Shown: in pieces, positions 3,798-25,414 of the stretch
Layout of the letters: every line of letters begins with the position of its first letter
Position numbering within the stretch: position 1 is the stretch's first letter
NCBI GenBank assembly: GCA_021779955.1
Contig: JAJXZS010000017.1
Span: 1-36,534, forward strand
Reading direction: 5' to 3'
DNA length: 36,534 bases
From: Chloroflexota bacterium
Lineage (GTDB): Bacteria; Chloroflexota; Anaerolineae; Anaerolineales; Anaerolineaceae
Notes under the pieces: model-generated
What the model saw: the letters and a program-made list of their open reading frames with translations, nothing else
What the model was told of the DNA's origin: nothing
Database searches by the model: none
Translations under genes and position numbers: made by a program

Positions 3798-6700
3798 CTA
3801 CTTCTTCCTGGATTGGCGCTTGGGTATTTCAATGTAGAATGTGCTTCCTTTGCCTAAAATACTCTCAACCCAGGTCTTGCCTTTATGCCGTTCTGCGATC
3901 GATTTCACAATCGTCAATCCCAGTCCTGTGCCCTGGCGAGTGTGCCCGTCTTTTCTCCCGCTTTTGTGGAATCGCTCGAATACATAAGGGAGATCGAGCG
4001 GGGCAATCCCCATTCCATGGTCCTGAATCGCGAATATGACGGACTCGCCATTGTCGACCAATCGCAGATACACCTGACCATTCAATGGTGAATATTTTAC
4101 CGCATTATCCAATAAGTTGAAAAGGGCTTGCTGTAGTAATGCTCCGTCGGCTTCGATCTCAATATTTTCTGCATCCACTGCAGTGATCCAAAGCTGAATC
4201 TTCTTCTGAGTCGCTTGGGGCTGCAACATGGCCATTACCTGTTCCAACAGATCATATGGCTTTATGGTTTCGATCTGCAATTCTATTCCTGCTTCGATCC
4301 GGCTCAGATCAAGCAAGTTATCGACCATCTGATTCATGGTATCCAGGCCTTTTTCAATTTTGCCTGTATACGCTTTTTGCTGATCGTTAAGCTCACCCAC
4401 CATTTGCAGCATCGTCGAATAGCCTTTCACGAGGCTGAGGGGTGAGCGCAAATCGTGGCTCACAGTCTGCACAAATTCAGATTTCATCTTGTCCAGAGCT
4501 CTGAATTCTGTGATGTCCTGCAAAACACAAACTGTGCCTATCCGTTTTTGATCGATATCTGCAGTAGAGACGTTGACATAGTAAGTTCGTCCGTTTTCTA
4601 GGGTCAACTCACTGTTTTTTTCAGTCCGCTTTTTGTTTTCTTTCAAGAAATTGGAAAGAAGTTCAGACGTTATCTGTCTCTCCCCACCTGAGGATCCCTT
4701 CGCATTACCGATCAGGCCTGGTATTTCCAACGCTGCTGGGTTTGCCAGGATGATCAACTGGTCTTCACCAAACAATAATACCGGCTCCGGTGTAGAGGCC
4801 AGCACATTTTCAAGCCGCTTTTTGCCGATTTCTGCCTGCCGGTACAGGCTTGAGTTGGATATGGCTAAAACCGCTTCACCTGCAATCGTATTCAAGTATC
4901 GAGTTTCACTATCCTGAAAACGATGCGTTTCTTCATAAGCAATCCAGAGAACGCCGTAGATGGTATGCTCGTCTCGGATGGCGATCCCTGCAATGGCAGA
5001 TGGGATCTTTTCATTACGCGGAATGCCCATGCTTTTGATTCTGCCTTTTGAGGGAATAATCGTGATTTTTTCCTCGCGTAATAATTCGACCATGACTTCA
5101 TCCAAAGAATCATACTCATTTGCGCAAGTTCCCGCTGAGAAGATCTCTCCAATCTGCCATGATTCTTCATCTGTCGACTCTCTTCGCAAAATCAAACGAC
5201 TTGAGCAAGCCCCATTGACCAGGGTCGCATTTAGTATGTGCCTTGCCGCCCCTTCCATCGTCAAATTCGATGCTACGCCTTGTGATACTTTGAGCAGGTG
5301 GTCTAGCTCGTCCAAGCGCTCCTTCAGGCTTACACGCATCTGCTCAAACGCCGAACCTAACTTGCCAATTTCATCGACACCAGAAGTCTCGATTTGCAGG
5401 TCCAATTCACCTCGGGAAATTTCGTCCGCCTGATCAGCTAACGAAATGAGCGAATGAGCAATTCGATTCATCAGGAGCCTGAGCAGCAGATAGGCGATAA
5501 CCGCAACCGCCAGCGACATCGCCAGCAACGGAATCGCAATCTGCAGCGCGATCTCCTGGGCCGCTGTTGCCGGCAACGAGAGCAATACCTTCCAGTTATT
5601 CTGGCTGGTAATCACTGCATAAAGCAGGCGGCGGGTGCCTGTGGCGCTGGTTTCATCGTAGTACCCTGTTGCGTCTGGTATCACCCCACTGTAGGTGGAA
5701 AGTACGCTGCCTGACTCAGTGGAATACAATATTCGATTCTGAGAATCTAGAATAACACCCTGACCGCCCCTAGTTTTTACTCGTTCTAGAGCTGCCAACG
5801 CTGGTTGCATAAAGAAATTCGTGGACAAGTCTGTCCTTGCAAGCAGCACTCCATTTGCCATACCGTATTCATCCGGAATGGCTGCGATGAATGTCAACTG
5901 CGCAGAATCTGTCCCCGTCCTGGCAGGTACCAGGTAGTTTTGCATCGATACCCCATTGAGCGCAAGTTGAATCCCCGCCCGTTCCTCTTCAGTCAGTTGC
6001 AGCTGATCGATCGTGTTTGATGGATAACCGGTAACAGGATGGCCACCTTTATCAAAGACGAAAAGATCACGGAAATAAGGCACCGCAAGGATTTTGTTTT
6101 GCAGAAACGATGCAAGTTGAGAAGTCTCGATCGAAGACAAATTGGAACTGGCAAGGTCGAGGGCAAGGCTCTGACCAGCCTCAATAAAGTATGGCAAGTT
6201 TTCTGCAGCAGCATCCGCGGAAGTCGACAGTTGGTTCTTAACCATCTTTTTCGCTGCGTTTCCCGCTACTGTCCAATCAGCAACGGTTAGTGTAATCAGC
6301 AGGATCAGTATCAACGGCAGAGTGCTGGAAAACATCCTCGCCTGTAAGCCCACCTCAGCAGGTGAAGGTCTTAATACCTTAAGCTGAATCCAAAATCTGG
6401 ATTTAATTACCTTGAAGATTTCAAGCAACGCGCCGGCGATAACCAATTCGATACCATTGACAATCACCAGACTCCATGATTGCGTGAAGGCATAGTCCAA
6501 TTTGGTAGCCAGGAGTCCATTTGTGGCAAAGAAAGTCGAAAATAGGTAAATAGGGGTGGAAATAGCCGCAACAAATACGGCTGCCCCAATCGGATGGCGA
6601 AGCAGGCGATAAAATGTAGTTCGGTAATTCTGACGTAACGCTACGCTGACCATCAGTGCGATGGCCATATTTTCCAGTGGTGTAAATAGTGAATGAGTAC

Positions 6701-7079
6701 TCCAAAAAGCCGAGATGATCCCGCTCACCAATGCCAGGGACGCGGCCAAAACCGAATTGAGGAGTCCGCCTGCCAACATCCACGGAATGACGGACAACAC
6801 CATCACCAAAGGCACAGATATTTCGCGGGGCACATTGGGTAGCGGCAGCATTTCACCGCCCGGGAGTGCAAATCCAACAAAGAAACTCGTCGCAAGGGTA
6901 AGCAAGAACAGTATTACGTAGATCAAGCGTGAGTAAGGGGGCAGACTTTCATTCTTGATGATCTCACGCCTGACGCTCCAACCAATGGTCATCGCCAACA
7001 AAATCCAACCCAACCATCCGATCCAATGGTAAGGCAAATCAACAAATGGCAATGCGCCCCAAAGTCCGATCTTGATCAT
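3798..7079 (-). CDS. Membrane sensor histidine kinase (6TM-Cache-HAMP-GAF-PAS)
   Basis: Orphan two-component sensor of 1093 residues. It starts with a hydrophobic region of about six membrane helices (1-225). A further TM (about 251-270) leads into an extracytoplasmic Cache-like sensor (about 275-510), then another TM and a HAMP linker (about 515-597), a GAF domain (about 605-750) and a PAS domain (about 765-860). The kinase core has His875 in VSHDLRSPL, an N box NLLDNAVKY near 990, then DHGMGI, an F box FERFHKS, and GTGLGL. All ATP-binding boxes look intact, so it should autophosphorylate and pass phosphate to an unseen response regulator. No regulator lies beside it. The signal is unknown. 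It has no Shine-Dalgarno sequence; a -10-like hexamer sits 6 bases before the ATG. rpoC follows with its own promoter. Confidence 0.93.
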   Translation of the reverse strand: MIKIGLWGALPFVDLPYHWIGWLGWILLAMTIGWSVRREIIKNESLPPYSRLIYVILFLLTLATSFFVGFALPGGEMLPLPNVPREISVPLVMVLSVIPWMLAGGLLNSVLAASLALVSGIISAFWSTHSLFTPLENMAIALMVSVALRQNYRTTFYRLLRHPIGAAVFVAAISTPIYLFSTFFATNGLLATKLDYAFTQSWSLVIVNGIELVIAGALLEIFKVIKSRFWIQLKVLRPSPAEVGLQARMFSSTLPLILILLITLTVADWTVAGNAAKKMVKNQLSTSADAAAENLPYFIEAGQSLALDLASSNLSSIETSQLASFLQNKILAVPYFRDLFVFDKGGHPVTGYPSNTIDQLQLTEEERAGIQLALNGVSMQNYLVPARTGTDSAQLTFIAAIPDEYGMANGVLLARTDLSTNFFMQPALAALERVKTRGGQGVILDSQNRILYSTESGSVLSTYSGVIPDATGYYDETSATGTRRLLYAVITSQNNWKVLLSLPATAAQEIALQIAIPLLAMSLAVAVIAYLLLRLLMNRIAHSLISLADQADEISRGELDLQIETSGVDEIGKLGSAFEQMRVSLKERLDELDHLLKVSQGVASNLTMEGAARHILNATLVNGACSSRLILRRESTDEESWQIGEIFSAGTCANEYDSLDEVMVELLREEKITIIPSKGRIKSMGIPRNEKIPSAIAGIAIRDEHTIYGVLWIAYEETHRFQDSETRYLNTIAGEAVLAISNSSLYRQAEIGKKRLENVLASTPEPVLLFGEDQLIILANPAALEIPGLIGNAKGSSGGERQITSELLSNFLKENKKRTEKNSELTLENGRTYYVNVSTADIDQKRIGTVCVLQDITEFRALDKMKSEFVQTVSHDLRSPLSLVKGYSTMLQMVGELNDQQKAYTGKIEKGLDTMNQMVDNLLDLSRIEAGIELQIETIKPYDLLEQVMAMLQPQATQKKIQLWITAVDAENIEIEADGALLQQALFNLLDNAVKYSPLNGQVYLRLVDNGESVIFAIQDHGMGIAPLDLPYVFERFHKSGRKDGHTRQGTGLGLTIVKSIAERHKGKTWVESILGKGSTFYIEIPKRQSRKK

Positions 7080-7239: not shown

Positions 7240-7929
7240 TTATTCCTCTATGGGATCCTCGATCAAAGCTAGTGCCTCTTCGTACACCTCTTCGATTCCT
7301 TTGCCGCTGGAATCGATAATATGTGCATCCACTGCGGGCTTTAGAGGGGCAATCGCCCGGTTGGAATCGATCTGATCGCGCAGCAGGATGCCCGCCAGAA
7401 TTTCGTCGTAGGTCACGTCTTCCCCGCGCAGGCGCTTCTCGTCGAACCGCCGCTGTGCCCTCACATCAGGCGTCGCATCCAGGTAAATTTTCAGATCTGC
7501 CTCGGGTAGCACGACAGTCCCGATATCTCTTCCCACCATCACAACGTTTCCCCGAAGACCGATCCTGCGCTGCTGTGCTGTCATCGCTTTGCGCACGCCT
7601 CCGTAAGTAGAAACCTGCGAAACGTTCCTCTCGACTCGCGGCGAGCGGATCAGCCATGTGATATCCTTGCCATCCACCAGCACATCTGCGGTGCGCCCAT
7701 CAGCGACGGAGGGCGGTTGGACATCGATCTGGATTCGTTCTGCAAGTTCGGTGATGACCTTTTCATCGTCTATATCCAGGTTTGCTTCCAATGCCACAAA
7801 AGTCACAGCGCGGTACATAACGCCAGTGTCGAAATAGAGATAGCCAAGCTGTGTGGCCAGCTTTTCCGCCAGGGTGGATTTTCCAGAGGCGGCGGTTCCG
7901 TCAATGGCGATCTTTTTTGGGAAGGTCAT
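7240..7929 (-). CDS. cmk: Cytidylate kinase
   Basis: Phosphorylates CMP and dCMP to the diphosphates using ATP, in the cytoplasm. The 229-residue length is normal for bacterial CMP kinases. The P-loop is GTAASGKST at residues 11-19, followed by FDTGVMYRAVT, the conserved GRDIGTVV segment, and an arginine-rich lid (RAQRRFDEKRLRGE). A purine-rich AGGAT precedes the ATG by 6 bases. It is the last gene of a long co-directional run with short gaps, 24 bases behind a membrane glycosyltransferase-like gene. A pyrimidine nucleotide kinase would suit CDP- or CMP-linked sugar metabolism, but cmk is a housekeeping gene found in many contexts, so the link is weak. Confidence 0.95.
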   Translation of the reverse strand: MTFPKKIAIDGTAASGKSTLAEKLATQLGYLYFDTGVMYRAVTFVALEANLDIDDEKVITELAERIQIDVQPPSVADGRTADVLVDGKDITWLIRSPRVERNVSQVSTYGGVRKAMTAQQRRIGLRGNVVMVGRDIGTVVLPEADLKIYLDATPDVRAQRRFDEKRLRGEDVTYDEILAGILLRDQIDSNRAIAPLKPAVDAHIIDSSGKGIEEVYEEALALIEDPIEE

Positions 7930-7953: not shown

Positions 7954-9624
7954 TTATTTGAATAGATCGTTGCGTGCCCAAACGATCAGGCGGATTTCTT
8001 CAACTGGCGCTTCACGATAGAAAGACCACTTCAACCAATCGGATAGACCCATCTGAGCAAAAGCCGGATATTGTTCCCAAGCCAGTCCCTGTCCGCGGTA
8101 TAAGGTCGTTGCCCCAATTTGCAGATAATCCGGCGCAATTATAATCGATGGAGTCGCTGTCTGGGGGAACTGGGTGTCATAAGTTACCTGTGAAAAATCA
8201 CGCAGAGCCCAACGCATGGCAGGTACGTCGAAACCCACCACATCGATGTCGATATTCTGGGGCAGACCATGATTCCAGATCGAAAGATCGTTGATTTGCG
8301 ATACCACAAGCTGCTCGCCAATGGTAATCGATTGGGGTTTCCAGGCGTAGCCGGAGATTTGCTGCATCCCGCCGGCGTTCTTCATTGCTCCTGCTGCCAT
8401 CCACCCAAATAACAGGATGCCGACCCCGATCCCCAATCCACGAAAAGCTGATCGCGGTGACCAACCCCACGCCATGAAAACGGTCAGCAACAGCACCAGG
8501 GCAATGGGGAGAGCTGCTGCGATCAACCGGTTGTTCTGAACGATGAGATCAGAAGATGGATTATTGAAATACGCCAATATGTTGAGGTAACTGAATACCA
8601 CCAGAACAACGGAAAGCACAATTTCCACGATGAGCGCCAGTCGTACATCATCGGAGATCTCATAAACAAGGCCATCTACGCCAAGCGCGGTAAGGCCCCA
8701 GAGCGGCAATGCTGCCCAAACCCAATCCCAGATTTCTCGCGAAGGATTCACAATCATCAGGAATAATGCGGCGATGAACCAGATCCCCATGACGCTGACG
8801 AGTTCGCGCCTTCGATTGAAGGAATTGATGAGGCCCATCACGGCCAGGATGATCAGAGGGAAATAGGTTAGCCCAAAAACGATCAGAGAAGAAGAAAGCG
8901 GCACAAGCGATTGCGAACCCCAATTGTGGATGAAGCTCAATAGTCCATTGCTAATGCCCGTGATGCCATTGGGTACAGCCATAAACCCGGTCCCAAGCAA
9001 AGCCATGGTAATGATTGCGCCGGCTCCAAAGACTTCGAAGTCCTTTGCTTCCAGGCCTTCGAAGATGTAAACGTGCATAAAGAGAGAAGCTGACAGGTAT
9101 ACCAGCAGAAAAATGACCATTCCCATCCAAAAAGCCGGGCCGCTTGCGATGGCTATCCCCAGGCAGACGCCCGCCAGGATCATCTTTTTGTTCACCAGGA
9201 AACCTGCCGCGCCTATTCCGAAGACGATTGCCAGACTTTCTACTCCGGCGGTGCGAGAAATTGCCACGAGGGCAGGGTCGATCGCGAGAAAGAGACCCAA
9301 AAGCAGGGCCAATCGCTGACCGAAAGCCTTTCGAAAGAGCAGCGGGAGAAAGACTGCGCACGATCCTATCAGTGCAGGCCAGAATCTTGCCGCGAAATTT
9401 CCGCTGCTAAATAGCTTGAACAGCCCTGCCGTCAATATGACGTACGCCGGCTGGTCACCCATCAACACATTGGCTCCGCTGCTGATATTAAACGCCTGCA
9501 TCGCCTGCAATGCTTCGAAATTGTTCAGTGCCATTTGCCCAAGGTGGATAAAGCGCACACTGGCGGCTAGGAGGAAAAGCAGCCCGTATAACAAATATTC
9601 GGTGGTGAATTCTCTTTTGCTCAT
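7954..9624 (-). CDS. GT39-like polytopic membrane protein (TIGR03663/Agl23-like)
   Basis: A 556-residue, strongly hydrophobic protein with many membrane helices across about residues 8-420 and a short polar C-terminal domain. The N-terminal layout resembles the dolichyl-phosphate-mannose-protein mannosyltransferase (GT-C) fold. The C-terminal pattern (YREAP, then IVWARND) resembles, from memory, the TIGR03663 family associated with archaeal Agl23, which is often encoded near YYY-family proteins, as it is here. The first extracytoplasmic loop, where GT-C enzymes usually have Asp-Glu, reads LNNFEAL (Phe36-Glu37), so the usual aspartate is absent. It may be a divergent enzyme or a non-catalytic partner. 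ATG is preceded by GGAGG 4 bases upstream; the gap to the preceding gene is 12 bases. No profile search was possible. Confidence 0.75.
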   Translation of the reverse strand: MSKREFTTEYLLYGLLFLLAASVRFIHLGQMALNNFEALQAMQAFNISSGANVLMGDQPAYVILTAGLFKLFSSGNFAARFWPALIGSCAVFLPLLFRKAFGQRLALLLGLFLAIDPALVAISRTAGVESLAIVFGIGAAGFLVNKKMILAGVCLGIAIASGPAFWMGMVIFLLVYLSASLFMHVYIFEGLEAKDFEVFGAGAIITMALLGTGFMAVPNGITGISNGLLSFIHNWGSQSLVPLSSSLIVFGLTYFPLIILAVMGLINSFNRRRELVSVMGIWFIAALFLMIVNPSREIWDWVWAALPLWGLTALGVDGLVYEISDDVRLALIVEIVLSVVLVVFSYLNILAYFNNPSSDLIVQNNRLIAAALPIALVLLLTVFMAWGWSPRSAFRGLGIGVGILLFGWMAAGAMKNAGGMQQISGYAWKPQSITIGEQLVVSQINDLSIWNHGLPQNIDIDVVGFDVPAMRWALRDFSQVTYDTQFPQTATPSIIIAPDYLQIGATTLYRGQGLAWEQYPAFAQMGLSDWLKWSFYREAPVEEIRLIVWARNDLFK

Positions 9625-9636
9625 GTTCCTCCGTGT

Positions 9637-12231
9637 TTACCCGCCAGGGGTCAGCAGTGAATCCGGGATCTCGTAAATGGTCACCGAGTTGTTCTGATAA
9701 GTAGGAGTGAGTATTCCGTTGAACTTATTCACATCGACCTGATAGGTTATGGTCTCATCATAACCGATGTAAACATAACGAATATGGTACTGGCGCAGGA
9801 TGGTGAGAGCGTCATCCCAGTCGTGCGTGGTGTACAGCGTCTCGATATCTGCCTGGCGGTTGCCCATTTCGGTGGAACCACCACGCCATTGACTTTCGTG
9901 CCCCGGCCAGCCCAGCACCGTGGGGTAGCCCGTCTGTGTGGCAACCCATTCGGAGTCCGGCGTGTAGCTGCCCTGCACTGCCTCGCTCACGACACCCATG
10001 GGTTGGGTCTCGAGCCAGGCGATTGCCGCTGCCTCATCAGGATAATATCTGGCAAGATACGCGTTTCCATCCAATGTCCAGGCGGTTGGGTTGAAATCGT
10101 TGGTCTTGTTCAGCGTCATGATTATAGGATAAATAAACGAGCACAAGATGAGGACAACCCACGTGACACTGAAAATGGCTCTCAAGGCTTTGCGCAAAGA
10201 AACGAGCAATACCACCGATCCGAACGCAGCTGCGATTCCCCAAAGGCTCCAGGTTTCAAAGTAAAATTTGAAAATTGTGTTCATGCGCGTGCCGAACTGG
10301 TCGCGCAAATAGAAATTCTCAGGGAAGAATGTTAGCAAAGCACCCAGTAATACCAGGATCAGCACAAAACCGTTGACATCGATCTTGTGTGCACCGTTCA
10401 CTTCACCTTCGATGATTACTTCGTGCAAGTCCGCATCCTCGACGCTTTCCTCTTGTTGCTTCTTGACAAAGCTAAAGATCAGCGCAAGCACCAGCGTAAA
10501 GAGCACGAGCAGTGTAATCCACGTACCGGGCGAAGAGAAGTGGCGTGAAACTGCAGCATTGAGCACTGTTGCAGCGTCCGCTCCTGAATGCACGTAATAG
10601 CTGAACGCCAGGCCCGCTGTATTCAGTTTTACTCCAAGATTGGAGATCAAAGGCGAACTGGAAGTAGCCAACTTGGCTCCCCAATCGACGAAAGCACATA
10701 GCACAGCTCCAGCGACCAGCGATACAAACCACAGGCCGAACACGAATATCACCGCTACGCGAATCCCCCGCCCCAGATTGCTCTTGGTAACCCGCTGCGC
10801 GAATAGGAAGGCAACCCATGCGAAAATCGGGATCAGCAAGACCGCAAACATGATCCAGAAATTCACACCGCGTGTTTGGAATTCAAGGCTAGGCAGCAAA
10901 CCACCCGCTTGCGACTTGAAACCGACATAGAATGGGAGAAACAGGGCCACTCCGGCAACTGCGAAGGTAATACCCATGCCCAGGAATTCGAGCAATCGTT
11001 TCCATCGCCAACCGCTCTGCTTGATCCGCAAGTAAGCCGCGGTCAGGCAGAATAAACCAACATAGATTGGGAAATTCCAGGTGTTCAAGAACCCCATTAC
11101 GCCCAGGATCAGCGCAGTTAGCCAGAATTCCCACCGCTTTACCCACACTTTGAGCGACCAATCCTCGATTGGCTGTGCAGATCCCCTGGCGAAAAGACTC
11201 AGGCACGCTGCGATCGCCAGCAGCGCGAACGGCATCGCAAGAACATGTGGGTGCAGATCAGAAAGCAGGTAGCTGAAAAACGGGAATTCATCGATCACCT
11301 CAATGGTATCCCCCGTGATGCCTGTATCCTGAATTACACGGGATGCCCGCCACCATAACCAGCCTGCAGGCCGGTTAGGCAGCCAGCTGATCGGCGTCGT
11401 CGGTGCTACATTCAACTCCTGTACCTGCAACCAGTTCCAGAACTTCGAAGTACCGTCTGCATTCCAGAACCAGTGTCTTGCATACATGATCTCGAGTAGT
11501 CCCTCGAGGTTACTTGTGATCAAAATAAAGATCGGCCCGAGCAATGCGCCAAACCTGCTCAAAACCGATGAGCTTTGCTCAGATGATCGGCGCCTTGCAT
11601 TCCACAATTTGAGCAGATCGTAAACCACACCGTAAGCCGCAGCCGCCGTAAGCCCATACCACAACGCCGCAGTCAGGTTGAAGCCAACTCCCGTGATCAC
11701 TCCTGTGATGCGGATGAGCATGGCCACGAGTACATAACCGAAATAGTAGTAGGAAATGGCATACCCTGAAAGCCATGGGTCCTGGGGCGGAAAGCCTGGC
11801 GATTTCAATATTCCATTGATAAACGCCAATTCCATCGGTTTTTCAGTGTACGTGATATCCGGATTCGCCGCCCTTACCACCGTCCAGACCACAAAGAAGG
11901 TCAGGAAGACCAGTTCGATGGTCAGCAGGGTCTTCCAGTTACCCTTCACCCATTCGACCAGGTCCTGTAGATGTCTTTTCCTCAAAAGCAATAGTGAGCA
12001 GATGAGCACGAGGATGAATGCCAGGATTTCTCCGCCCAAATCGTTTTGCAGCACGCCCAGAGAACCGAGCAGCCAGAAGAAGAATCCCCAAAGAAGCAGG
12101 CCCAATGGTTTGGCAAATGCAGCCCCCTTTTCAGCCAGGCCCGGGAAGAATCGAAATGCAATCGGGAAAGCAGCCAACCCGATGATGCTTATCGCAATAT
12201 ACCAAAGGATAAAGGAGACAACGTCGCTCAA
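9637..12231 (-). CDS. YYY-family (DUF2298-type) membrane protein
   Basis: An 864-residue membrane protein of the Chlor_Arch_YYY type (TIGR03662 / DUF2298), a family of unknown function that I recall from archaea and Chloroflexi. The diagnostic YYYFG is at residues 161-165, preceded by EKPMEL and DPWLSG. Other landmarks are DEFPFFSYLLSDLHPH (DLHPH near 325), NTWNFP, RMNTIFKFYFETW, and a soluble C-terminal part with LGWPGHESQWRG. All are matched one for one in the C-terminal half of the neighbouring 1778-residue protein, so the two are paralogues. The start is a TTG at 12231, the first usable initiator; the upstream GGACGG is only a moderate Shine-Dalgarno match. A role in envelope polysaccharide or glycolipid assembly is inferred from the neighbours. 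Confidence 0.88.
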   Translation of the reverse strand: MSDVVSFILWYIAISIIGLAAFPIAFRFFPGLAEKGAAFAKPLGLLLWGFFFWLLGSLGVLQNDLGGEILAFILVLICSLLLLRKRHLQDLVEWVKGNWKTLLTIELVFLTFFVVWTVVRAANPDITYTEKPMELAFINGILKSPGFPPQDPWLSGYAISYYYFGYVLVAMLIRITGVITGVGFNLTAALWYGLTAAAAYGVVYDLLKLWNARRRSSEQSSSVLSRFGALLGPIFILITSNLEGLLEIMYARHWFWNADGTSKFWNWLQVQELNVAPTTPISWLPNRPAGWLWWRASRVIQDTGITGDTIEVIDEFPFFSYLLSDLHPHVLAMPFALLAIAACLSLFARGSAQPIEDWSLKVWVKRWEFWLTALILGVMGFLNTWNFPIYVGLFCLTAAYLRIKQSGWRWKRLLEFLGMGITFAVAGVALFLPFYVGFKSQAGGLLPSLEFQTRGVNFWIMFAVLLIPIFAWVAFLFAQRVTKSNLGRGIRVAVIFVFGLWFVSLVAGAVLCAFVDWGAKLATSSSPLISNLGVKLNTAGLAFSYYVHSGADAATVLNAAVSRHFSSPGTWITLLVLFTLVLALIFSFVKKQQEESVEDADLHEVIIEGEVNGAHKIDVNGFVLILVLLGALLTFFPENFYLRDQFGTRMNTIFKFYFETWSLWGIAAAFGSVVLLVSLRKALRAIFSVTWVVLILCSFIYPIIMTLNKTNDFNPTAWTLDGNAYLARYYPDEAAAIAWLETQPMGVVSEAVQGSYTPDSEWVATQTGYPTVLGWPGHESQWRGGSTEMGNRQADIETLYTTHDWDDALTILRQYHIRYVYIGYDETITYQVDVNKFNGILTPTYQNNSVTIYEIPDSLLTPGG

Positions 12232-12261
12232 CGATTACCGTCCAAACTATTCTGCAAAAGA

Positions 12262-15200
12262 TCAGCGAAGTACTTCGTAGATCACTGTATCCTTCTCACT
12301 GAACACTTTCTTCCAATACACGCCGTCGTATTGCTCGAATTTGAGCAAGCCATCCCCAGGATAGAGGTCGCGCTCTTCCTGTCCCAGGATGATATAACTC
12401 ACATTGTATTTCTGTAGAATTCCGAGGGCTTCCTGGACATCGGAAGTGGTATAGAACACCGGAATTTCGATCAGTCGTTCCGAGATTCCATTATAGTCAA
12501 TAAATCCGCGCTGCTGACGTTGGTGGTAGTTCCATCCGAGCACTCCAGGCAACCCGGTGTAAATGGTATAGCGGTTGCCCCAGCGGTATTCCACGGTGTT
12601 GGCTTCGATCAGCACAGGCGATCCAATCACATTCTCCTGCATCCACTTGATCCCGTCGTAATCCTGGCTGAGTTCGTAAGTCCCTTCCACGTCGGTGTAC
12701 GAAGTGGTCTTCATAAAGATCGTCCCGTCCAACGTCTTTGGGGCGGTCGGGTCGTAGCGATCGCGAATCTTATCAAGAACTGCAGTTAACGGATAAAGTG
12801 CCGCGCCAAAAACCAGCACTGCCAGCGCCACTTGCCAGATTGAGCTCGTACTCATCTTCCAGCGCATGCTCACTGCGGGAATCAACCATCCGAGGGCTGC
12901 TGCAGACGAAAGCCCGAGCAGTGTCCACGCCTGGTAGTAGAACTTGAAAACAGTATTCATCCGTCCCACATCACCCTGCAGCGCGAACAACTCCACAAAG
13001 ATCGTCAAGAACATGGCTGTCCCGATCATGAACAGCACCAACCGCTTCAGATCAGGCATGCCCGGCCTGAAGAGTAAGATCAGCACCCATACTGCGATCG
13101 GGAATGCGATCCAACCGATTTGGATTTTCATGAATGCCAGCACGATAAGGATGACCAGGAAAAGCACGCCCAACATCTGCAGTGTGCCTTTGTGCGGTTT
13201 GAGCTTTTTCAGCGCCGATACAGGCGTTGCAGCCAACCATTCACGAGTTTCCCACACCAGCCAGCTCACGATGATGAACAGGAACAAGCCCCAATGAACC
13301 AGATACGAGCCTATCGGTGATTTATCGCCTGTCCAGGCGTCGACGGTCCCATACGCCTGATCGTAATATCTTGACCAGGGGATATAGAGAAGACTACTCA
13401 ACACATATAGGACGATCAACACCGCTGCAGCAACTGCCAGCTTTCGCAGCCACTCAGGCCATTTGGTTGGCAGCCATGCGGGCGTCGCTGCATAACGTAG
13501 CACGACATAAAGTAAAATCACTGCCGATAATGCCAGATAAGTCGGATAATCCCAAGTGTTGACGGGTCGCAGCGCTCCAATAGCCAGACCACCGAGGAAC
13601 AGGCTGGCACCCAGCTCGATCCAGCCCCTCGTTCGACCGCCCTTCCACCACTGCCATTTGCTGAATAGAATCGACATGCCCCATACAATTACCAACAGCG
13701 TGATCGATAACGCGATCAGGTGTGCGTGCAGATCAGCATAGGTAAATGTGAAGAATGGGAACTCGGTAATCGTATCCCCGGGCAGCGCCCGCGAAGGGAT
13801 CCACAGCCAATCGCCATAGCCGTAAGGCAGCTTGGCTCCGGCAAGCATCTTGCCTAGCCCGTCCCATGCCCAAGCCAGGTGCTGGAAGATCGTCCCGTCA
13901 GCGATGATACCGCCTGGCGCCACCAGCTTCTGCCATCCCTGCCATATCATCCTCAGGGTGCCAAGGTTACCGAGCACAAGAACGAGCAGCGTCGAGCTGA
14001 TCCCTGCGCCAAAGGCCTTCCAGTTGCCTTTTGCTTTGGGCTCATCCGGATTCGAGTGTTCGAATCCGTTTCTGGCAAATACATTCCACCCGATGCTGAA
14101 AGCTCCGATCGCTGTCAAACCGAATAAAGTTGGCAGGATCAGGTTATATGCGACATCGACATTGATCCCCAGCAATTTCACGGGAGCCCCATAGAGGACG
14201 TACCCGTAATAATAATAGTTTATGTATCCGCCGGAGTACCATGGATCGAAAGGCGGAAACGTCGTGCTCTTGATCACAGCAGTCAGATACGACAGGTCCA
14301 TCGGCTTTTCGCCGCCGCGCCATGGATGCCACAGGTCGGGGTTGTTGTAGCGGATCAGCAAATCGATCCCAAAGAAGACTAACATCAGCCCTTCAACTAT
14401 AAGGAAAAGCTTCCAGTGGGTTCGAATATCTTCTGCCAATTGCTTTCGGCGCAGTACTGCGATCACCGCATTGGTAACAAACAGCCCGATCAGCACTCCC
14501 GCCATGGTCGTGCGGCTGAAGGTCAGACCGGACGAGCCTGCCCAAAACGTGAACAATCCGAACAGCAGCAGACCGATTAACCGGCTCGCCGGGAATCCCC
14601 GGTCGGGCAGCCGGTTCAGCGCCAGGTGCACCATTGGATACACCATCCACCCCAGTAGCAAAATCGCGAGGTACCACACCACTACAGCTGCCACCTGGCT
14701 CTGATTCACCCATGAAGCAGGGTCGAAGATCTGTGTCCAGGTGCCTCCAGCTTGCTGCGTCTTCAATGCCTCGGGTGCAAGAGTGAGATCGCTCTTGAAA
14801 TTGCCGGCTTCCCTCAGTACCAGATGCACCGTGTTGCTGATATCCACCGATTCGAGCAATGAATGCACAGCCGCCGAATCGTATGAGGCATTCTTCTTGA
14901 AGATAAGCACCTTTGGGTGATCGTAGACGGTAAACGCCTCTTCAGCAGACTGATCGTTGATTTGGAAACTGCCCAGGTTCGGATTCGATTGCTCGATTTG
15001 CACGAGATCGAAGCCCAATTGTCCCTGATACATGCCTGGCGTGGCATTTTGATAGCAGGTGAGGATATCTTGCGAATCCGGGCAGCCGATCAAAGTACGG
15101 TAATACTCGGTCGAAAGCGGATAACGTTCGGGCAAGCGGGTGATGGTGCCCCATTGTCGATTCGAAGAGATGAAGATGTAGTCCGACTGGTCGAGTATGT

Positions 15201-17598
15201 TCTCCATCCTCGTAACCTTGGCGGCATTGTCATCCCAGTACATCTCAAAGTTCTCGACATTTCCATAGATGCCTGTGTCGTAGCTAAAAACGTCGTACCC
15301 GTCCATCGGAATTGGCAGCGGATCATCCCATGTGCTCTCGATCGCTGTCGAATCATTGTAGATGGCCAGTGCCCCGCTCCCCTGCGCTAATTGTATGTGC
15401 AGCGTGTACTGCTGATATTGGTCCAGTGCCACAGGCTGATCGAATGTGACGGTTTTTTCATCCCCGCGTACATCCTTCGTTGGCAGGAAAGTATCGATCA
15501 AAGTGCCACTGGCAATTGTTTGGGTCGGATTATTATTATTTGATAGGTATAAATTAAGCGTCTTTTCGCCTGGAGTGAGTTGCAGATCCACGATCCGGTA
15601 GAGGTCGACGCTTTTGACGACCCCGCTTGCCCGCGGCACGAATGGAATATCATACTCGCTTCCCTGCATTACCCCCTGGGTTGCCGATGGTAGTACTTTG
15701 GTCTTGATCTGATCACCCACTTTGTAAGTGATCTCGATCGACCCGTAGAGTTTCAAATACTCTACTGGTTCGCCCACCGAAAGCGATAGAAGGTAAACCG
15801 TGTCCTTACTCAATTGGGCCGGAAAATCGAACGCCACAGACGTGGGGTCGCCACGCGCATCACTCATCGGCTGGAAGGTAGATTGCGTAAAACCGGCAGC
15901 GATCAGCTGTCCCGATCCGCTCCCCTTCGTCAGGATCGATGCTACCAGCGAGAGCGTCGGATACTCGCCTTGCATGTTTCCGACATGCTCGAGATCAACG
16001 CTGGTGATTTGCGCATCCTCATCGAGAGTGAAGCCTATGTCGAGGGGTTTGTCTGCCGAGAAGACCACGCCATTGCGGAATGGCAGCAGCTGCTTCACCG
16101 TTGACTCGCCAGTTACGATCGGCATGCTGATTGCGCTGTTGACGTTCTGGTAGATCCACTCGCTCGCGGAAACGCGGGTCACCGGCCGTGTGTAAATTTG
16201 GGTGAATGCAAAAGCCCAAAGCCCTGTGCTGACCACGACTACCACGGCAAGGAATATTGAAAGGATCCGCGGCCAATTGATGCGAATTGCTCTCAATTTT
16301 GCCGAAATTCTCGGATTGGTTTCCCAGAGCTTGAATACTGCCCACGCCGCGATCAATGCCAGCGCCGGATAGATCGGAAGCTGGTAGCGCATGGCTTTGA
16401 CCCAGGAAATCGAATTAATGACGAAGAAGACTCCGGTCCAGGTCCAAAGCAGCATATGTTTCTGGAAGTCGCCTTTGATCATGCGCCAGCCCATCCAAAG
16501 GAATCCACCCCATGCCACCAGTCCGAAAGCGATTCCCAGTCCCCATTCCACCATGTTCGTCAAGGCGAAAGTGTCCGGTCTACCCACCCACTGGAGCGCA
16601 AATGGCACATCGACAAGCCCCTGGCTTTGTGTGCTGATTTCCTTCAAGCTGCTGATGAAATTTGGATTGATCTTCATCCCGAAGAAACCGGGGCCCATGA
16701 ACGCGTAAGGCTGGAAAATGCGGAAAGTCAGGAATGCAATGATCCCGCCAAGCACCAGGTTGCGCAAGATGATGCTGACCCAGTTTTCCCGGATGTCTTT
16801 CGGTTGGCGCAAATAATGCAGGTAAGCTGCAAGCGGAAGAAGAGCAGCCGCAGGCCAGATGCTCACCTTACACGCCATGCCCATCCCAAACAAAATGCCG
16901 AAGAGTGCATAAGGCGCAAGCGTCCCCCAATAGCTTTTCAACCAGTAAGGCACCAGGTTATCTGAAGGCGGATCGTCCTCGCTTTCTACCGGCAGATCAA
17001 TTCGCGCCAACGGATCGGCAGTCATAATCAGCACGGCCACGTACAATGCTGCATACACGAAGAGATTCGCGAATGTATCGACCGTGAAATAATGCGAAAG
17101 CTGAATTTGAAGCACTGCCAGCGCTGAAAGCAGCGCTGCCAATAATCCAAGTTTGGGGTTGCGGTATAACCTTTTTGCGATCAGATACACGAAAATGATC
17201 GTGCCAAGATCGAAAATCGCGGAAAGAACCCTGCCCACGAGATTGACCTGGTCGTACCCGGTCATATTTGTCCACTGTGCAACATAACGGGTGAGGAACA
17301 GCGGAAGCGTGCCGTAGACAAAATACGAATTCCCCCGGTTTGCCGGGTTGAGTGTCGAAGTTGCGGTGTTGAAGTACTCACCCAGGCTGTGAACTGGCTC
17401 GATCGCTGTCTCGACCATGGTCAGAAAGCGTTCATCAGGATGCAGGTGGTACGAAGCATCCCAGGAAATACCCGTGAACCTGAAATATGCTCCGATTAGC
17501 AGGATGCCGATCAACAGGACGTCCCAGATCCAGGTATGTCCTGGCCTGGAAGAGTCTGGCAGCGATGACTTCGGATCGATTGTTTCAGGCACGTTCAT
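12262..17598 (-). CDS. Giant fusion: GT39-like glycosyltransferase + YYY-family domain
   Basis: A 1778-residue, two-part membrane protein. Residues 1 to about 470 form a GT-C module with one N-terminal helix and then HPDERF, giving the Asp55-Glu56 pair expected of an active polyprenyl-phosphate-sugar glycosyltransferase. Residues about 480-940 are soluble, presumably extracytoplasmic, and hold two similar beta-rich modules marked by DARGDPTSVAFDFP (about 584) and DVRGDEKTVTFDQP (about 711). From about 965 to the end it matches the neighbouring 864-residue YYY protein along its full length: EKPMDL, DPWYSG, YYYYG at 1128-1132, ITEFPFF, DLHAH (about 1290), RMNTVFKFYYQAW. No internal stop or frame break is seen. 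GGAGC precedes the ATG by 7 bases. It may transfer sugars from lipid carriers on the outer face of the membrane; acceptor and donor are unknown. Confidence 0.88.
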   Translation of the reverse strand: MNVPETIDPKSSLPDSSRPGHTWIWDVLLIGILLIGAYFRFTGISWDASYHLHPDERFLTMVETAIEPVHSLGEYFNTATSTLNPANRGNSYFVYGTLPLFLTRYVAQWTNMTGYDQVNLVGRVLSAIFDLGTIIFVYLIAKRLYRNPKLGLLAALLSALAVLQIQLSHYFTVDTFANLFVYAALYVAVLIMTADPLARIDLPVESEDDPPSDNLVPYWLKSYWGTLAPYALFGILFGMGMACKVSIWPAAALLPLAAYLHYLRQPKDIRENWVSIILRNLVLGGIIAFLTFRIFQPYAFMGPGFFGMKINPNFISSLKEISTQSQGLVDVPFALQWVGRPDTFALTNMVEWGLGIAFGLVAWGGFLWMGWRMIKGDFQKHMLLWTWTGVFFVINSISWVKAMRYQLPIYPALALIAAWAVFKLWETNPRISAKLRAIRINWPRILSIFLAVVVVVSTGLWAFAFTQIYTRPVTRVSASEWIYQNVNSAISMPIVTGESTVKQLLPFRNGVVFSADKPLDIGFTLDEDAQITSVDLEHVGNMQGEYPTLSLVASILTKGSGSGQLIAAGFTQSTFQPMSDARGDPTSVAFDFPAQLSKDTVYLLSLSVGEPVEYLKLYGSIEITYKVGDQIKTKVLPSATQGVMQGSEYDIPFVPRASGVVKSVDLYRIVDLQLTPGEKTLNLYLSNNNNPTQTIASGTLIDTFLPTKDVRGDEKTVTFDQPVALDQYQQYTLHIQLAQGSGALAIYNDSTAIESTWDDPLPIPMDGYDVFSYDTGIYGNVENFEMYWDDNAAKVTRMENILDQSDYIFISSNRQWGTITRLPERYPLSTEYYRTLIGCPDSQDILTCYQNATPGMYQGQLGFDLVQIEQSNPNLGSFQINDQSAEEAFTVYDHPKVLIFKKNASYDSAAVHSLLESVDISNTVHLVLREAGNFKSDLTLAPEALKTQQAGGTWTQIFDPASWVNQSQVAAVVVWYLAILLLGWMVYPMVHLALNRLPDRGFPASRLIGLLLFGLFTFWAGSSGLTFSRTTMAGVLIGLFVTNAVIAVLRRKQLAEDIRTHWKLFLIVEGLMLVFFGIDLLIRYNNPDLWHPWRGGEKPMDLSYLTAVIKSTTFPPFDPWYSGGYINYYYYGYVLYGAPVKLLGINVDVAYNLILPTLFGLTAIGAFSIGWNVFARNGFEHSNPDEPKAKGNWKAFGAGISSTLLVLVLGNLGTLRMIWQGWQKLVAPGGIIADGTIFQHLAWAWDGLGKMLAGAKLPYGYGDWLWIPSRALPGDTITEFPFFTFTYADLHAHLIALSITLLVIVWGMSILFSKWQWWKGGRTRGWIELGASLFLGGLAIGALRPVNTWDYPTYLALSAVILLYVVLRYAATPAWLPTKWPEWLRKLAVAAAVLIVLYVLSSLLYIPWSRYYDQAYGTVDAWTGDKSPIGSYLVHWGLFLFIIVSWLVWETREWLAATPVSALKKLKPHKGTLQMLGVLFLVILIVLAFMKIQIGWIAFPIAVWVLILLFRPGMPDLKRLVLFMIGTAMFLTIFVELFALQGDVGRMNTVFKFYYQAWTLLGLSSAAALGWLIPAVSMRWKMSTSSIWQVALAVLVFGAALYPLTAVLDKIRDRYDPTAPKTLDGTIFMKTTSYTDVEGTYELSQDYDGIKWMQENVIGSPVLIEANTVEYRWGNRYTIYTGLPGVLGWNYHQRQQRGFIDYNGISERLIEIPVFYTTSDVQEALGILQKYNVSYIILGQEERDLYPGDGLLKFEQYDGVYWKKVFSEKDTVIYEVLR

Positions 17599-17635: not shown

Positions 17636-18799
17636 CTACTTAACTTCTTGCTGAATCTGATCGAATAATTTCACGTAAGCCGCGGCGATCGCATCGGGAG
17701 TATACCGCGCAAATGATTGAGGGTCGCCGTGATGGTACTTCTCTCGGTTCGCCAGCACTTCGAGCACAGCCTCCGCGCAGGCATTCGAATCGCCAATCGG
17801 GAAGATCTTGCCCATTCCATGCACTGCCACAGGTTGGCGTACCCCGGGCAGGTTCGACGTGACGCAGGGTACGCCGTTCATCATCGCCTCGATCTGCACC
17901 AGTCCAAACGCTTCCGTAGAATTCAGCGAGGGGAGTACGTGCACATCCAGGTTAGGATAGTAAGCGGCAATCTCGGTTGGGTTGAGCGAACCGACGAACT
18001 GCCAGTTGCCGCTCTCGATATATTGGTCGATTTGCGGCTTTAATCTGGCGAAATACTTTTCCTCGCCGATGATCTTTTGATATGGCCCTACGAATTCAAC
18101 TAAAGCATTCGGGTGTACTTCAAGGATTCTTGGCAGTGCATTCAAAAGCACTTCCACCCCTTTTTCTGTTGCAAAACGCGCCACCATGCCGATGACAGGT
18201 CGCCGATTCTCTGGGTTATGCACCTTTGCAAACGCATCCATGGCTTTCTGGTTGACTACAGGCAGCACCACAGGCGGCGGAATGATTATCGTCTTCTTCG
18301 GGAATTTGGAGACATACGCTGAATGATCGGCATAATCCTGGGTATAGGTCACAATCCGGTGTGTCGCCAGGCCTGCAATCTTGTTCATTACATTGACTGC
18401 TGCATTTGCCGCCTTACTCAAGAGTCCCGGGGGCATCAACAGGTCGCAATGAAATGTAATGACAGTAGGCTTCTTCGCCATTCGTCCACGCAGAGCCACA
18501 CCCGCAGCATCGAACTGCGGCAGGTGCAGCTGGACCACGTCATTCTCTTTGACAAGTCGGCTTGCCGTCAAGCCGAAGGTCGGCATGATCACGCCCTTGC
18601 TCAAGCGAAACGCTACAGGCACCCGCACGATCCTTACCCCTTCGATGACTTCTTCCCTTGGAAGCGACTTCTTGAACTGGGACGTGAGCACGGTCACCTG
18701 GTGCCCCTGCCTGACGAATGCCGCAGCCAATCGTTCGGCGTAAATGGTCAATCCGCTGATATGAGGTCGATAATAGGTCAAAACAATCAAAATACGCAT
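17636..18799 (-). CDS. GT4-family glycosyltransferase
   Basis: A GT-B-fold glycosyltransferase of 387 residues. The N-terminal Rossmann domain opens with MRILIVLTYYRPHISGLT, the usual GT4 glycine-rich acceptor region. The C-terminal donor domain contains VGMVARFATEKGVEVLL and the EX7E pair Glu296/Glu304 in EAFGLVQIE. It is expected to use a nucleotide sugar at the cytoplasmic membrane face; the sugar and acceptor cannot be read from the sequence. No membrane helix is evident. It lies between an SDR epimerase and two giant membrane glycosyltransferase-like proteins, with gaps of 15-37 bases, which suggests a shared operon for glycan or glycolipid assembly. The ATG lacks a clear Shine-Dalgarno sequence. 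Confidence 0.93.
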   Translation of the reverse strand: MRILIVLTYYRPHISGLTIYAERLAAAFVRQGHQVTVLTSQFKKSLPREEVIEGVRIVRVPVAFRLSKGVIMPTFGLTASRLVKENDVVQLHLPQFDAAGVALRGRMAKKPTVITFHCDLLMPPGLLSKAANAAVNVMNKIAGLATHRIVTYTQDYADHSAYVSKFPKKTIIIPPPVVLPVVNQKAMDAFAKVHNPENRRPVIGMVARFATEKGVEVLLNALPRILEVHPNALVEFVGPYQKIIGEEKYFARLKPQIDQYIESGNWQFVGSLNPTEIAAYYPNLDVHVLPSLNSTEAFGLVQIEAMMNGVPCVTSNLPGVRQPVAVHGMGKIFPIGDSNACAEAVLEVLANREKYHHGDPQSFARYTPDAIAAAYVKLFDQIQQEVK

Positions 18800-18814: not shown

Positions 18815-19840
18815 CTAGAAAATGTCCTGGTTTGCCTTCACCCACTCGAACAGCCGCCGGATACCTTCCTCCGCGCTGACCTGAGGTTTCCAGCCGAGTA
18901 ACCGGTTTGCCTTGCGAATGTCCGAAATGAATACCGGTTGATCTCCCGGCCGCCAATCGCCGCGTGCTACGTTTAGCTTGCGGCCAAGCAGTTTTTCGAG
19001 CATGGGCGCAAACTCGGTCCAGATCGCGATGGTATTGGATCTTCCCCCGCCGATGTTGAAAACCTGGCCGGCAGCCTGATTGATGTGCTCGAATGCTGCA
19101 TCGTAGGCATTCAACAGATCTTCAACAAACAGGATATCCCGCACCTGCTTCCCATCGCCGTAGATGGTGATTGGGCGCCCGGTAATGGCAGCGATGATAA
19201 ACCAGGCGACCCAGCCCTGGTCCTCCACTCCAAATTGCCGTGTGCCGTAAATGCAACTCTGGCGAAAAACCACGCTGGGCAAGCCGTAAATCCGGTGATA
19301 ATCGCGCACGTATTGATCGCCGCAGCCCTTGCTGCAGCCGTATGGCGAATGGAAGTCAAGCGGCTGTGCTTCCGAAGCGCCTTCGGGCAGATCGGCGTAG
19401 TCATAGTGCGTTTCATGCTCCACGACCCTGACATCTTCCATCCCGCCGTAGACCTTGTTGGTCGAAGAATACAGAAAGGCGGGATTCTTGCCTGAAGCCC
19501 TCGCCGCCTCGAGTACATTGAACGTCCCGTTGGCGTTGATCTCGAAATCCGTACGCGGGTCGGTTACCGAAGTTGTAACGGCCACCTGAGCTGCCAGGTG
19601 GACGATCCTGTCCGCTGAAGATGCCGCCATGCGGATCATATCGGCATCTCGCACGTCTCCAACGATCAGTTCGAACGATTTCTCGCCAAATTGACGGCGC
19701 AACCATTCGATGTTCGCTTCTGCGCCGCTGCGTGACAGATTATCGAAAATGATGATCTTGTTTCCACGTTGGATGCCCCTTGCAGCGTAGTTTGAACCAA
19801 TGAAACCCGCTCCACCTGTGATCAGAGTAATGCCTTTCAT
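18815..19840 (-). CDS. Extended SDR sugar epimerase, CDP-paratose 2-epimerase-like
   Basis: A 341-residue nucleotide-sugar SDR. The NAD site is TGGAGFIGSN (residues 8-17) and the catalytic pair is Tyr167/Lys171 in SPYGCSKG. The segments FDNLSRSGAE, QVAVTTSVTDP, SSTNKVYGG, LDFHSPYGCSKG and DQGWVAWF, in that order, closely follow CDP-tyvelose (CDP-paratose) 2-epimerase RfbE as I remember it, more than UDP-glucose 4-epimerase. The reaction would invert C2 of a CDP-dideoxyhexose, but genes making CDP-paratose are not in this window, so the true substrate may differ. ATG follows GGAGG by 3 bases; the gap to the upstream gene is 10 bases. It probably supplies a sugar to the adjacent glycosyltransferases. 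Confidence 0.85.
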   Translation of the reverse strand: MKGITLITGGAGFIGSNYAARGIQRGNKIIIFDNLSRSGAEANIEWLRRQFGEKSFELIVGDVRDADMIRMAASSADRIVHLAAQVAVTTSVTDPRTDFEINANGTFNVLEAARASGKNPAFLYSSTNKVYGGMEDVRVVEHETHYDYADLPEGASEAQPLDFHSPYGCSKGCGDQYVRDYHRIYGLPSVVFRQSCIYGTRQFGVEDQGWVAWFIIAAITGRPITIYGDGKQVRDILFVEDLLNAYDAAFEHINQAAGQVFNIGGGRSNTIAIWTEFAPMLEKLLGRKLNVARGDWRPGDQPVFISDIRKANRLLGWKPQVSAEEGIRRLFEWVKANQDIF

Positions 19841-24448: not shown

Positions 24449-24454
24449 TAAGAA

Positions 24455-25411: not shown

Positions 25412-25414
25412 CAT

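Follow-up and report, generated by a model that had tools for sequence, protein, structure and literature searches.

The window, by which we mean the whole 36,534-nt stretch of Chloroflexota DNA analysed (contig C10 of a 2.83 Mb genome in 56 contigs; positions are counted over its full length), carries on its minus strand three adjacent giant genes for membrane proteins, two of which encode members of the YYY family, TIGR03662. The minus-strand order is tlyA, lepA, a gene for a flippase-like LPG_synthase_TM/TIGR00374 membrane protein (LPG_TM), a short-chain dehydrogenase/reductase (SDR) epimerase, a GT4 glycosyltransferase, a 1778-aa GT-C/YYY fusion, an 864-aa stand-alone YYY protein, a 556-aa Agl23-like GT-C protein and cmk, and the gaps from the LPG_TM gene to cmk are, in order, 10, 15, 37, 30, 12 and 24 bp. 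The three giant open reading frames (ORFs) are in a row as the original prediction had described them: the fusion at 12262-17598, the stand-alone YYY protein at 9637-12231 (TTG start as listed) and the Agl23-like protein at 7954-9624. Families were scored by Pfam/TIGRFAM-type profiles against curated cut-offs, and the profiles also bear out the sugar-related genes expected upstream on the same strand, namely GT4 (17636-18799; PF00534 and others), the NAD-dependent SDR sugar epimerase/dehydratase (18815-19840; PF16363, PF01370) and LPG_TM. The ORF listed for LPG_TM (19851-21008) overlaps lepA (20870-22669; TIGR01393, 929 bits) by 139 bp. A possible GTG start at 20873 would place the gene at 19851-20873, and since that GTG and the lepA stop share GTGA at 20870-20873, as read from the sequence, the two genes may be translationally coupled. 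lepA lies near the head of this tight same-strand run, and cmk (7240-7929; TIGR00017, 231.8 bits) forms its tail.

The N-terminal membrane module of the fusion (approximately residues 1-470; 16189-17598) had been labeled GT39. The complete 1778-aa protein has no PMT match at E<=0.001, and the N-terminal half alone scores 19.5 bits against the Pfam PMT cut-off of 22.7, with no match to PMT_2. Although the label fails by that measure, profile comparison bears out the GT-C nature of the module. In an alignment of 48 such modules (GTC_N), PMT_2 is matched by 40 rows, the window's row not among them, and PMT by 24 (E<=0.01). Because our first PMT_2 set contained Agl23 relatives, we removed 12 of its 30 rows (Agl23- and GTC-like) and repeated the comparison; with this cleared set, hhalign gave 98.75% for GTC_N against PMT_2, alongside 91.3% against PTPS_related, 87.0% against STT3 and 0.75% against YfhO. 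Residues P54, D55 and E56 are invariant in all 48 rows, and D55-E56, within an HPDER motif (17428-17442) in the first outer loop, are candidate catalytic acids. A sequence search of the PDB with GTC_N returned ArnT at E 0.04, which we do not count as evidence on its own. By these profile comparisons the N-terminal half of the fusion is a GT-C module, though below the Pfam GT39 cut-off in this genome. It is followed by a long linker (approximately residues 471-960; 14719-16188) that is predicted to be extracytoplasmic, with no transmembrane (TM) segment called in the N-terminal half beyond residue 463; the linker has a weak DUF4082 match (17.7 bits, below the cut-off of 28.4).

The YYY domain of the fusion (residues 969-1776; 12262-14718) and the stand-alone protein score 485.8 and 496.4 bits, respectively, with TIGR03662 (cut-off 300.25), far beyond chance, and 377.3 and 363.5 bits with PF10060/DUF2298 (cut-off 27.8). 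The six motifs originally named in these proteins each occur once per YYY unit and in the same order in both. In the fused unit (motif span 12937-14310) they are EKPMDL (14293-14310), DPWYSG (14230-14247), YYYYG (14203-14217), EFPFF (13750-13764), DLHAH (13720-13734) and RMNTVFKFY (12937-12963), with NTWDYP at 13543-13560. The stand-alone unit (span 10261-11844) has EKPMEL (11827-11844), DPWLSG (11764-11781), YYYFG (11737-11751), EFPFF (11275-11289), DLHPH (11245-11259) and RMNTIFKFY (10261-10287), with NTWNFP at 11068-11085. The YYYxG motif is presumably part of the TIGR03662/DUF2298 family description. We aligned 103 YYY domains, comprising 72 of the 76 available stand-alone domains, 29 of the 49 available fused domains and the two from the window. 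Residues E130, Y161, Y162, G165, E315, D325, H327, N383, R649, N651, K655 and E750 are invariant in all 103, while H329 is conserved in 102 and D151 in 100. The stand-alone protein also has, in its C-terminal domain, a GYPTVLGWPGH motif (9898-9930) with H778 (102 of 103 rows) and W775 (98 of 103). The candidate active-site residues are kept in both the fused and the stand-alone copies. The statement that YYY has no known function holds within the literature we searched, where we found no tested function for YYY/DUF2298; DUF2298 is named in PMC12828279, and a gene-neighborhood table for one Chloroflexi bacterium shows PMT2 and PMT2/PA14 genes next to one for DUF2298, with no function given there (PMC8756737).

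The third giant protein had been described as TIGR03663/Agl23-like, and of this label the second half stands. The protein scores 44.1 bits with TIGR03663 (E-value 1.4e-11) against a cut-off of 126.25 and so falls short of membership, while the profile does match all 52 rows of our Agl23-like alignment at E<=0.01. The first acid of its D-x-E motif is replaced by asparagine; aspartate is found at this position in 30 of the 52 rows. For the alignment as a whole, hhalign gave 97.3% against the cleared PMT_2 set, 91.7% against PTPS_related, 10.2% against STT3 and 0.6% against YfhO, and by this comparison the Agl23-like protein is a GT-C protein. A PDB sequence search with the Agl23-like alignment returned GPI mannosyltransferase 1 (E 0.0079), again not counted as evidence on its own. 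A fuller TIGR03663 protein is encoded elsewhere in the genome with its own neighbors (G000:C48; 218.3 bits). In two other loci, L095 and L104, the open frame with the Agl23-like match is 1025 and 1144 aa, respectively, against the usual length of approximately 600 aa.

We considered the conservation of this block in the best 80 of 574 confirmed loci, a close sample titled Anaerolineae, Chloroflexi and the like; many of these named loci are truncated where a contig ends. By tblastn with the window proteins, stand-alone YYY was found in all 80, fused-type YYY in 64, the Agl23-like protein in 58 and GTC_N in 55, followed by cmk (44), GT4 (34), a histidine kinase (33), SDR (15) and lepA (9); the genes nearly always share a strand and keep a single order. 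By tblastn LPG_TM came up in only one locus; an iterated hidden Markov model (HMM) found it in 12, and also in 7 of 20 loci chosen from classes other than the window's. In many of these 20 loci the block is present again (GTC matches in 17, Agl23-like matches in 12), where a second, longer Agl23-like gene is frequent. The same-strand ORF that directly follows stand-alone YYY is the Agl23-like gene at 55 of 81 places in the Anaerolineae and at 11 of 16 elsewhere. Uncut fused ORFs, of 1504-1821 aa, number 49 among the named loci, and in L305, L312 and L318 the fusion contains two YYY domains. The cluster is therefore conserved in relatives, whereas a lack of such conservation had been set beforehand as the finding that would overturn the idea. 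The GT4 and SDR counts likewise place YYY genes among sugar genes, with the same-strand GT4 and epimerase kept in part of the loci only. Outside the Chloroflexota, plasmid pNP95 of Pseudobutyrivibrio xylanivorans, a rumen clostridium, encodes a stand-alone DUF2298 protein (L124, 11143-13398) within a polysaccharide cluster, near an O-antigen ligase, GT2s, a glucosyltransferase-domain protein and a nucleotide-sugar epimerase. These neighbors support a glycan role for YYY in that organism, and, because there is no TIGR03663 match anywhere on the plasmid, YYY does not always depend on a TIGR03663 gene nearby.

Some further observations concern individual loci. The histidine kinase is a large sensor protein encoded downstream of cmk (3798-7079, minus strand), and its homologs in the named loci also mostly follow cmk. 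In a locus from another class (L306, 1771-4680 and 16315-18404), genes for a PMT_2-PA14 protein and two LPG_synthase_TM proteins flank the block. One YYY fusion frame (G153:C100:12818-15319) reads through with one internal TAG.

The pairing of the YYY and TIGR03663 families extends to whole genomes. Among 301 Chloroflexota genomes, 198 have a strong TIGR03662 match (best E <=1e-44; 14 weak matches dropped) and 195 a strong TIGR03663 match (best E below 1e-16; 53 weak matches dropped). Both are present in 193 genomes and neither in 101, with TIGR03662 alone in five and TIGR03663 alone in two. We quote these counts with no significance attached, since shared ancestry inflates any such value. Two archaeal control genomes, those of Haloferax volcanii and Methanosarcina acetivorans, also gave TIGR03662 matches, and H. 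volcanii matched TIGR03663 as well. In a tree built from 75 YYY domains, 36 of 37 fused-type domains fell in one group and all 36 stand-alone domains in the other, with the Pseudobutyrivibrio sequence beside the stand-alone group, and with a long-branch fused row (L318) and a Halarchaeum fragment outside both. The two groups have SH-aLRT values of 91 and 89, short of the level that the tool stars, and the tree is midpoint-rooted; only the labels fused and alone were used, as the finer labels for a first and second fused domain are partly artefacts of domain splitting. This topology fits, and does not prove, a split between fused and stand-alone YYY that is older than the sampled lineages.

The YYY domain was laid out by hand as 16 TM segments, with both termini outside and three extra segments preceding a set of 13, where automatic calling gave 15 segments; all counts by location are conditional on this placement. 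The density of lysine plus arginine in this layout is 0.168 inside and 0.084 outside. Of the 73 positions conserved at 90% or more, 56 fall outside, three inside and 14 in TM segments, and the conserved polar residues fall 20 outside, none inside and six in TM segments. From the fourth segment on, the predicted layout has 13 TM segments, of which the first outer loop is large, and a C-terminal domain that lies outside, an arrangement that resembles ArnT- or STT3-like enzymes. DLHxH and YYYxG had been proposed as active-site or ligand residues. They are indeed conserved, and together with EKPM, EFPFF and RMNT they lie on the outer face in the hand-placed layout, which leaves them as candidates for such roles. 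A survey of GT-C families describes conserved residues that likewise lie on the outer face in the families defined there (PMC10920833).

The suggestion that all three giant proteins are GT-C/YYY proteins is supported by profile for the two modules discussed above, while for YYY the evidence is a remote profile match that is not plain from the sequence. In the principal comparison with PTPS_related (PF10131) and YfhO (PF09586), a YYY profile of 125 rows was used and gap-rich columns were removed on both sides. YYY matched PTPS_related at 90.8% over 104 columns (profile positions 105-209), covering TM4, the first outer loop and TM5, with a score of 64.5 against 34.0 for the best of 120 window-shuffled targets. 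The C-terminal domain of YYY matched YfhO at 52.9%, again with none of 120 shuffles as good. PTPS_related itself gave 98.2% against PMT_2 and 99.2% against YfhO. The YYY HMM found no YYY sequence in any of the six sets used as targets, even with the threshold relaxed to E<=10. As controls, Wzy_C, MFS, LPG_TM, histidine kinase and GT4 gave at most 1.4% against YYY, and Wzy_C and MFS at most 2.8% against GTC_N and the Agl23-like alignment. On these comparisons YYY is likely, though not proven, to be remotely related to GT-C, and Pfam has presumably already placed DUF2298 in its GT-C clan.

Several other matches were set aside. A direct hhalign match of YYY to GTC_N at 99.9% was an artefact of alignment rows that ran into the YYY domain, and it was gone after trimming. 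LMBD1, the best PDB match of YYY (1.2e-05), is taken as an effect of composition in a hydrophobic stretch. The reading in which all of these modules are GT39-like was dropped, as trimmed comparisons of YYY with PMT_2, GTC_N and the Agl23-like alignment gave no more than 3.2%.

On balance, we favor the interpretation that the block encodes a membrane module for completing a surface glycan beyond the cytoplasmic membrane, with its GT-C-type modules transferring lipid-linked sugars, although we hold to it with little more than even confidence. On the inner face, the SDR protein would supply a modified nucleotide sugar, and the GT4 protein would link the sugar to a carrier lipid. Movement of the lipid-linked sugar to the outer face would fall to the flippase-like LPG_TM protein, the Agl23-like protein or both; for archaeal glycosylation, a flippase role has been proposed for LPG_TM (pfam03706) proteins (PMC5898192). 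On that face, both YYY units, the Agl23-like protein and the fusion's GT-C half would serve as GT-C-type transferases, moving the sugar from polyprenyl phosphate (or pyrophosphate) to an extracytoplasmic acceptor. Within YYY, E130 and D151 in the first outer loop would be expected to act as a base or as acceptor-binding acids, E315 with D325-H327-H329 to bind metal or acceptor, and R649 and K655 to grip the donor phosphate. Catalysis by YYY, the residue roles, the donor, the acceptor and the order of steps are what we infer from these patterns.

A number of results weigh against this interpretation. Profile search found no polyprenyl-phosphate sugar synthase of the GtrB kind among the operon proteins, Agl23 of Haloarcula has been reported as a flippase and not a transferase (PMC11182771), and operon membership alone is little proof when cmk and lepA are housekeeping neighbors. 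Other results concern the kinship of YYY to GT-C. YYY against PMT_2 gave 1.1%, no real match; trimmed comparisons gave at most 3.2% against GTC_N and 2.8% against the Agl23-like alignment, near the values for reversed or shuffled targets, and the 36.3% seen in an untrimmed comparison with the latter covers only 22 hydrophobic columns. Among PDB chains, the YYY profile matched none of the GT-C type. With less trimming, while gap columns were still in the query, the match to PTPS_related stood lower, at 13.9% (25.3% for the core alone) in one setting and 52.5% in another, so its strength depends on how the alignments are handled. Leaving out the two non-Chloroflexota rows, archaeal and clostridial, moved the best match to PTPS_related to the C-terminal domain (84.5%, none of 20 shuffles as good). 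The match to STT3 was unstable, at 17.5%, 38.9% and then 1.8% with 4 of 120 shuffles as good; we do not rely on this match of the C-terminal domain, which sets LGWxxH opposite WWDYG, as it is not robust across settings. Finally, topping all shuffles is weak evidence alone, because the histidine-kinase control topped its own 40 shuffles (29.2 against 28.6), and PMT_2 and GTC_N topped all of theirs at 1.8% and 3.1%.

We also considered the possibility that YYY is a transporter or scramblase for lipid-linked sugars, with transfer carried out by the GT-C half and the Agl23-like protein. The many TM segments of YYY, whether 16 by hand or 15 by automatic calling, would suit such a role, as would the reported properties of the partner family: Agl23 purified from Haloarcula hispanica translocates lipid-linked oligosaccharide and suppresses the loss of rft1 in yeast (PMC11182771). 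However, with the conserved polar residues of YYY on the predicted outer face and none inside, a one-sided active site fits better than a two-sided pathway. MFS, the one transporter family tried, gave 0.65%, and the conserved C-terminal domain is predicted to lie outside. A transport role for YYY thus appears unlikely to us, if still worth keeping in mind.

Somewhat more doubtful is the idea that YYY is a non-catalytic partner derived from GT-C, one whose part would be to bind the acceptor or to act as a scaffold for the GT-C half of the fusion. The 49 uncut fusions in relatives, and the fact that the block is kept together, would be in keeping with such a partnership. Against it, the stand-alone copies keep the acids, histidines, arginine and lysine of the fused copies, and with E130, E315, D325, H327, R649 and K655 invariant in the whole alignment, a dead paralogue would not be expected. 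The Pseudobutyrivibrio plasmid, moreover, has a stand-alone YYY and no TIGR03663 match.

We regard it as improbable that the block builds a peptidoglycan-anchored polymer. SEDS polymerases, present in 269 of the 301 genomes, do occur in 190 of the 198 strong-YYY genomes, but eight strong-YYY genomes lack any SEDS match and strong YYY is missing from 79 genomes with SEDS, so the two families do not track each other, and strict tracking of YYY with peptidoglycan synthesis is rejected.

The name Agl23 stems from a haloarchaeal glycosylation pathway (PMC11182771), which might suggest classical protein N-glycosylation ending in an AglB/STT3 oligosaccharyltransferase. PF02516 matches at E<=0.001 were found in 86 of the 301 genomes (36 above the Pfam cut-off), including 71 of the 198 strong-YYY genomes, and we take the weak ones as matches to other GT-C proteins. 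Such a pathway is very improbable, as strong STT3 (best E below 1e-15; next best 1e-9) is found in only seven of the 301 genomes, just one of them with strong YYY, and 127 of the 198 strong-YYY genomes, the window's own included, have no PF02516 match at E<=0.001. The GT-C-type modules would thus act on lipid-linked sugars in a setting where classical N-glycosylation is unlikely.

A candidate source of the lipid-linked sugar lies close by. A UbiA-family decaprenyl-phosphate phosphoribosyltransferase is encoded on the plus strand at 23585-24448 (NF008977, 267.2 bits; cut-off 234), divergent from tlyA and thus outside the operon, as the first gene of a run (23585-26218) that continues with mevalonate kinase and isopentenyl phosphate kinase. 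A UbiA homolog occupies the same divergent place by tlyA in L094, the only one of the two loci containing tlyA that has enough flank. The location suggests that this enzyme may make a lipid-linked pentose donor, its link to YYY being one of nearness. Separately, the same run sets archaeal-type isoprenoid steps beside a lipid-pentose synthase, and a mannose-1-phosphate guanylyltransferase-like protein is encoded beside topA (31507-32598, minus strand; TIGR01479, 293.9 bits, below the cut-off of 372.95). A bolder proposal, for which the odds seem to us poor, is that YYY forms a new family of GT-C transferases with 3+13 TM segments and a metal- or acceptor-binding DLHxH; that its two copies, which parted long ago and one of which is joined to a PMT-like transferase, act sequentially on the same outer-face glycan; that the donor here includes decaprenyl-phosphate-linked pentofuranose made by the UbiA-family enzyme; and that Chloroflexota and haloarchaea share an STT3-free pentofuranose/hexose route.

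Taken together, the genomic data indicate that the block is widespread and tightly coupled and is most likely an extracytoplasmic glycosylation module. The genes, motifs and neighbors of the original prediction stood up, with corrections needed to the labels GT39, TIGR03663 and AglD; of its interpretation, the conserved cluster, the sugar context and the outer-face motifs were upheld, and YYY as a GT-C protein was recovered only as a remote match. The family names were already known, and the pairing of TIGR03662 with TIGR03663 is, we believe, already part of the TIGRFAM descriptions. What this analysis adds is the measured coupling of the two families, the predicted outer-face pattern of invariant YYY residues, the remote GT-C match of YYY, the counts against dependence on STT3, the signs of an old YYY split and the candidate donor enzyme. 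If YYY is a GT-C transferase, it would put a name to a large blind spot in the surface decoration of these bacteria and archaea, and YYY proteins would be candidates for adding the O-glycans that a Chloroflexota bacterium is reported to have on its archaellum (PMC12488501). The coupling to TIGR03663 allows a clear genetic test in a laboratory haloarchaeon.

Compared with known systems, the two YYY units are members of TIGR03662 Chlor_Arch_YYY/PF10060 DUF2298 above the cut-offs, and no finding excludes their membership. Their links to PTPS_related and YfhO are remote profile matches, in the first outer loop and in the C-terminal domain; unlike members of those families, 20 diverse YYY proteins have no Pfam match to either at E<=0.5. 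The N-terminal half of the fusion resembles PMT_2/PMT (GT39-like) proteins in profile and in its invariant D-E pair in the first outer loop, but differs in scoring below the Pfam PMT cut-off and in continuing, within the fusion, into a long outer region and a YYY domain. The Agl23-like protein is related by E-value to TIGR03663/Agl23 of Haloarcula hispanica and adjoins YYY, yet it falls below the curated cut-off and has the asparagine noted above. The flippase-like protein had been called AglD-like, which is correct for one domain of two: AglD joins a cytoplasmic glycosyltransferase domain to an LPG_TM-type membrane domain at its C-terminus (PMC5898192), whereas the ORF at 19851-21008 has the LPG_synthase_TM/TIGR00374 domain only, with no AglD glycosyltransferase domain found in it. 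The closest functional parallel may be three-component extracytoplasmic glycosylation, which combines a polyprenyl-phosphate sugar synthase with a flippase and a GT-C protein; in the pentofuranose-adding system of Citrobacter the synthase is of the phosphoribosyltransferase kind described above (PMC11127046). The part of that account available to us does not name the YYY family, and the window differs in that its synthase is divergent and outside the operon and in having up to four GT-C-type modules instead of one, but it would work in a similar manner, with GT-C proteins, flippase-like proteins and a phosphoribosyltransferase all encoded near one another.

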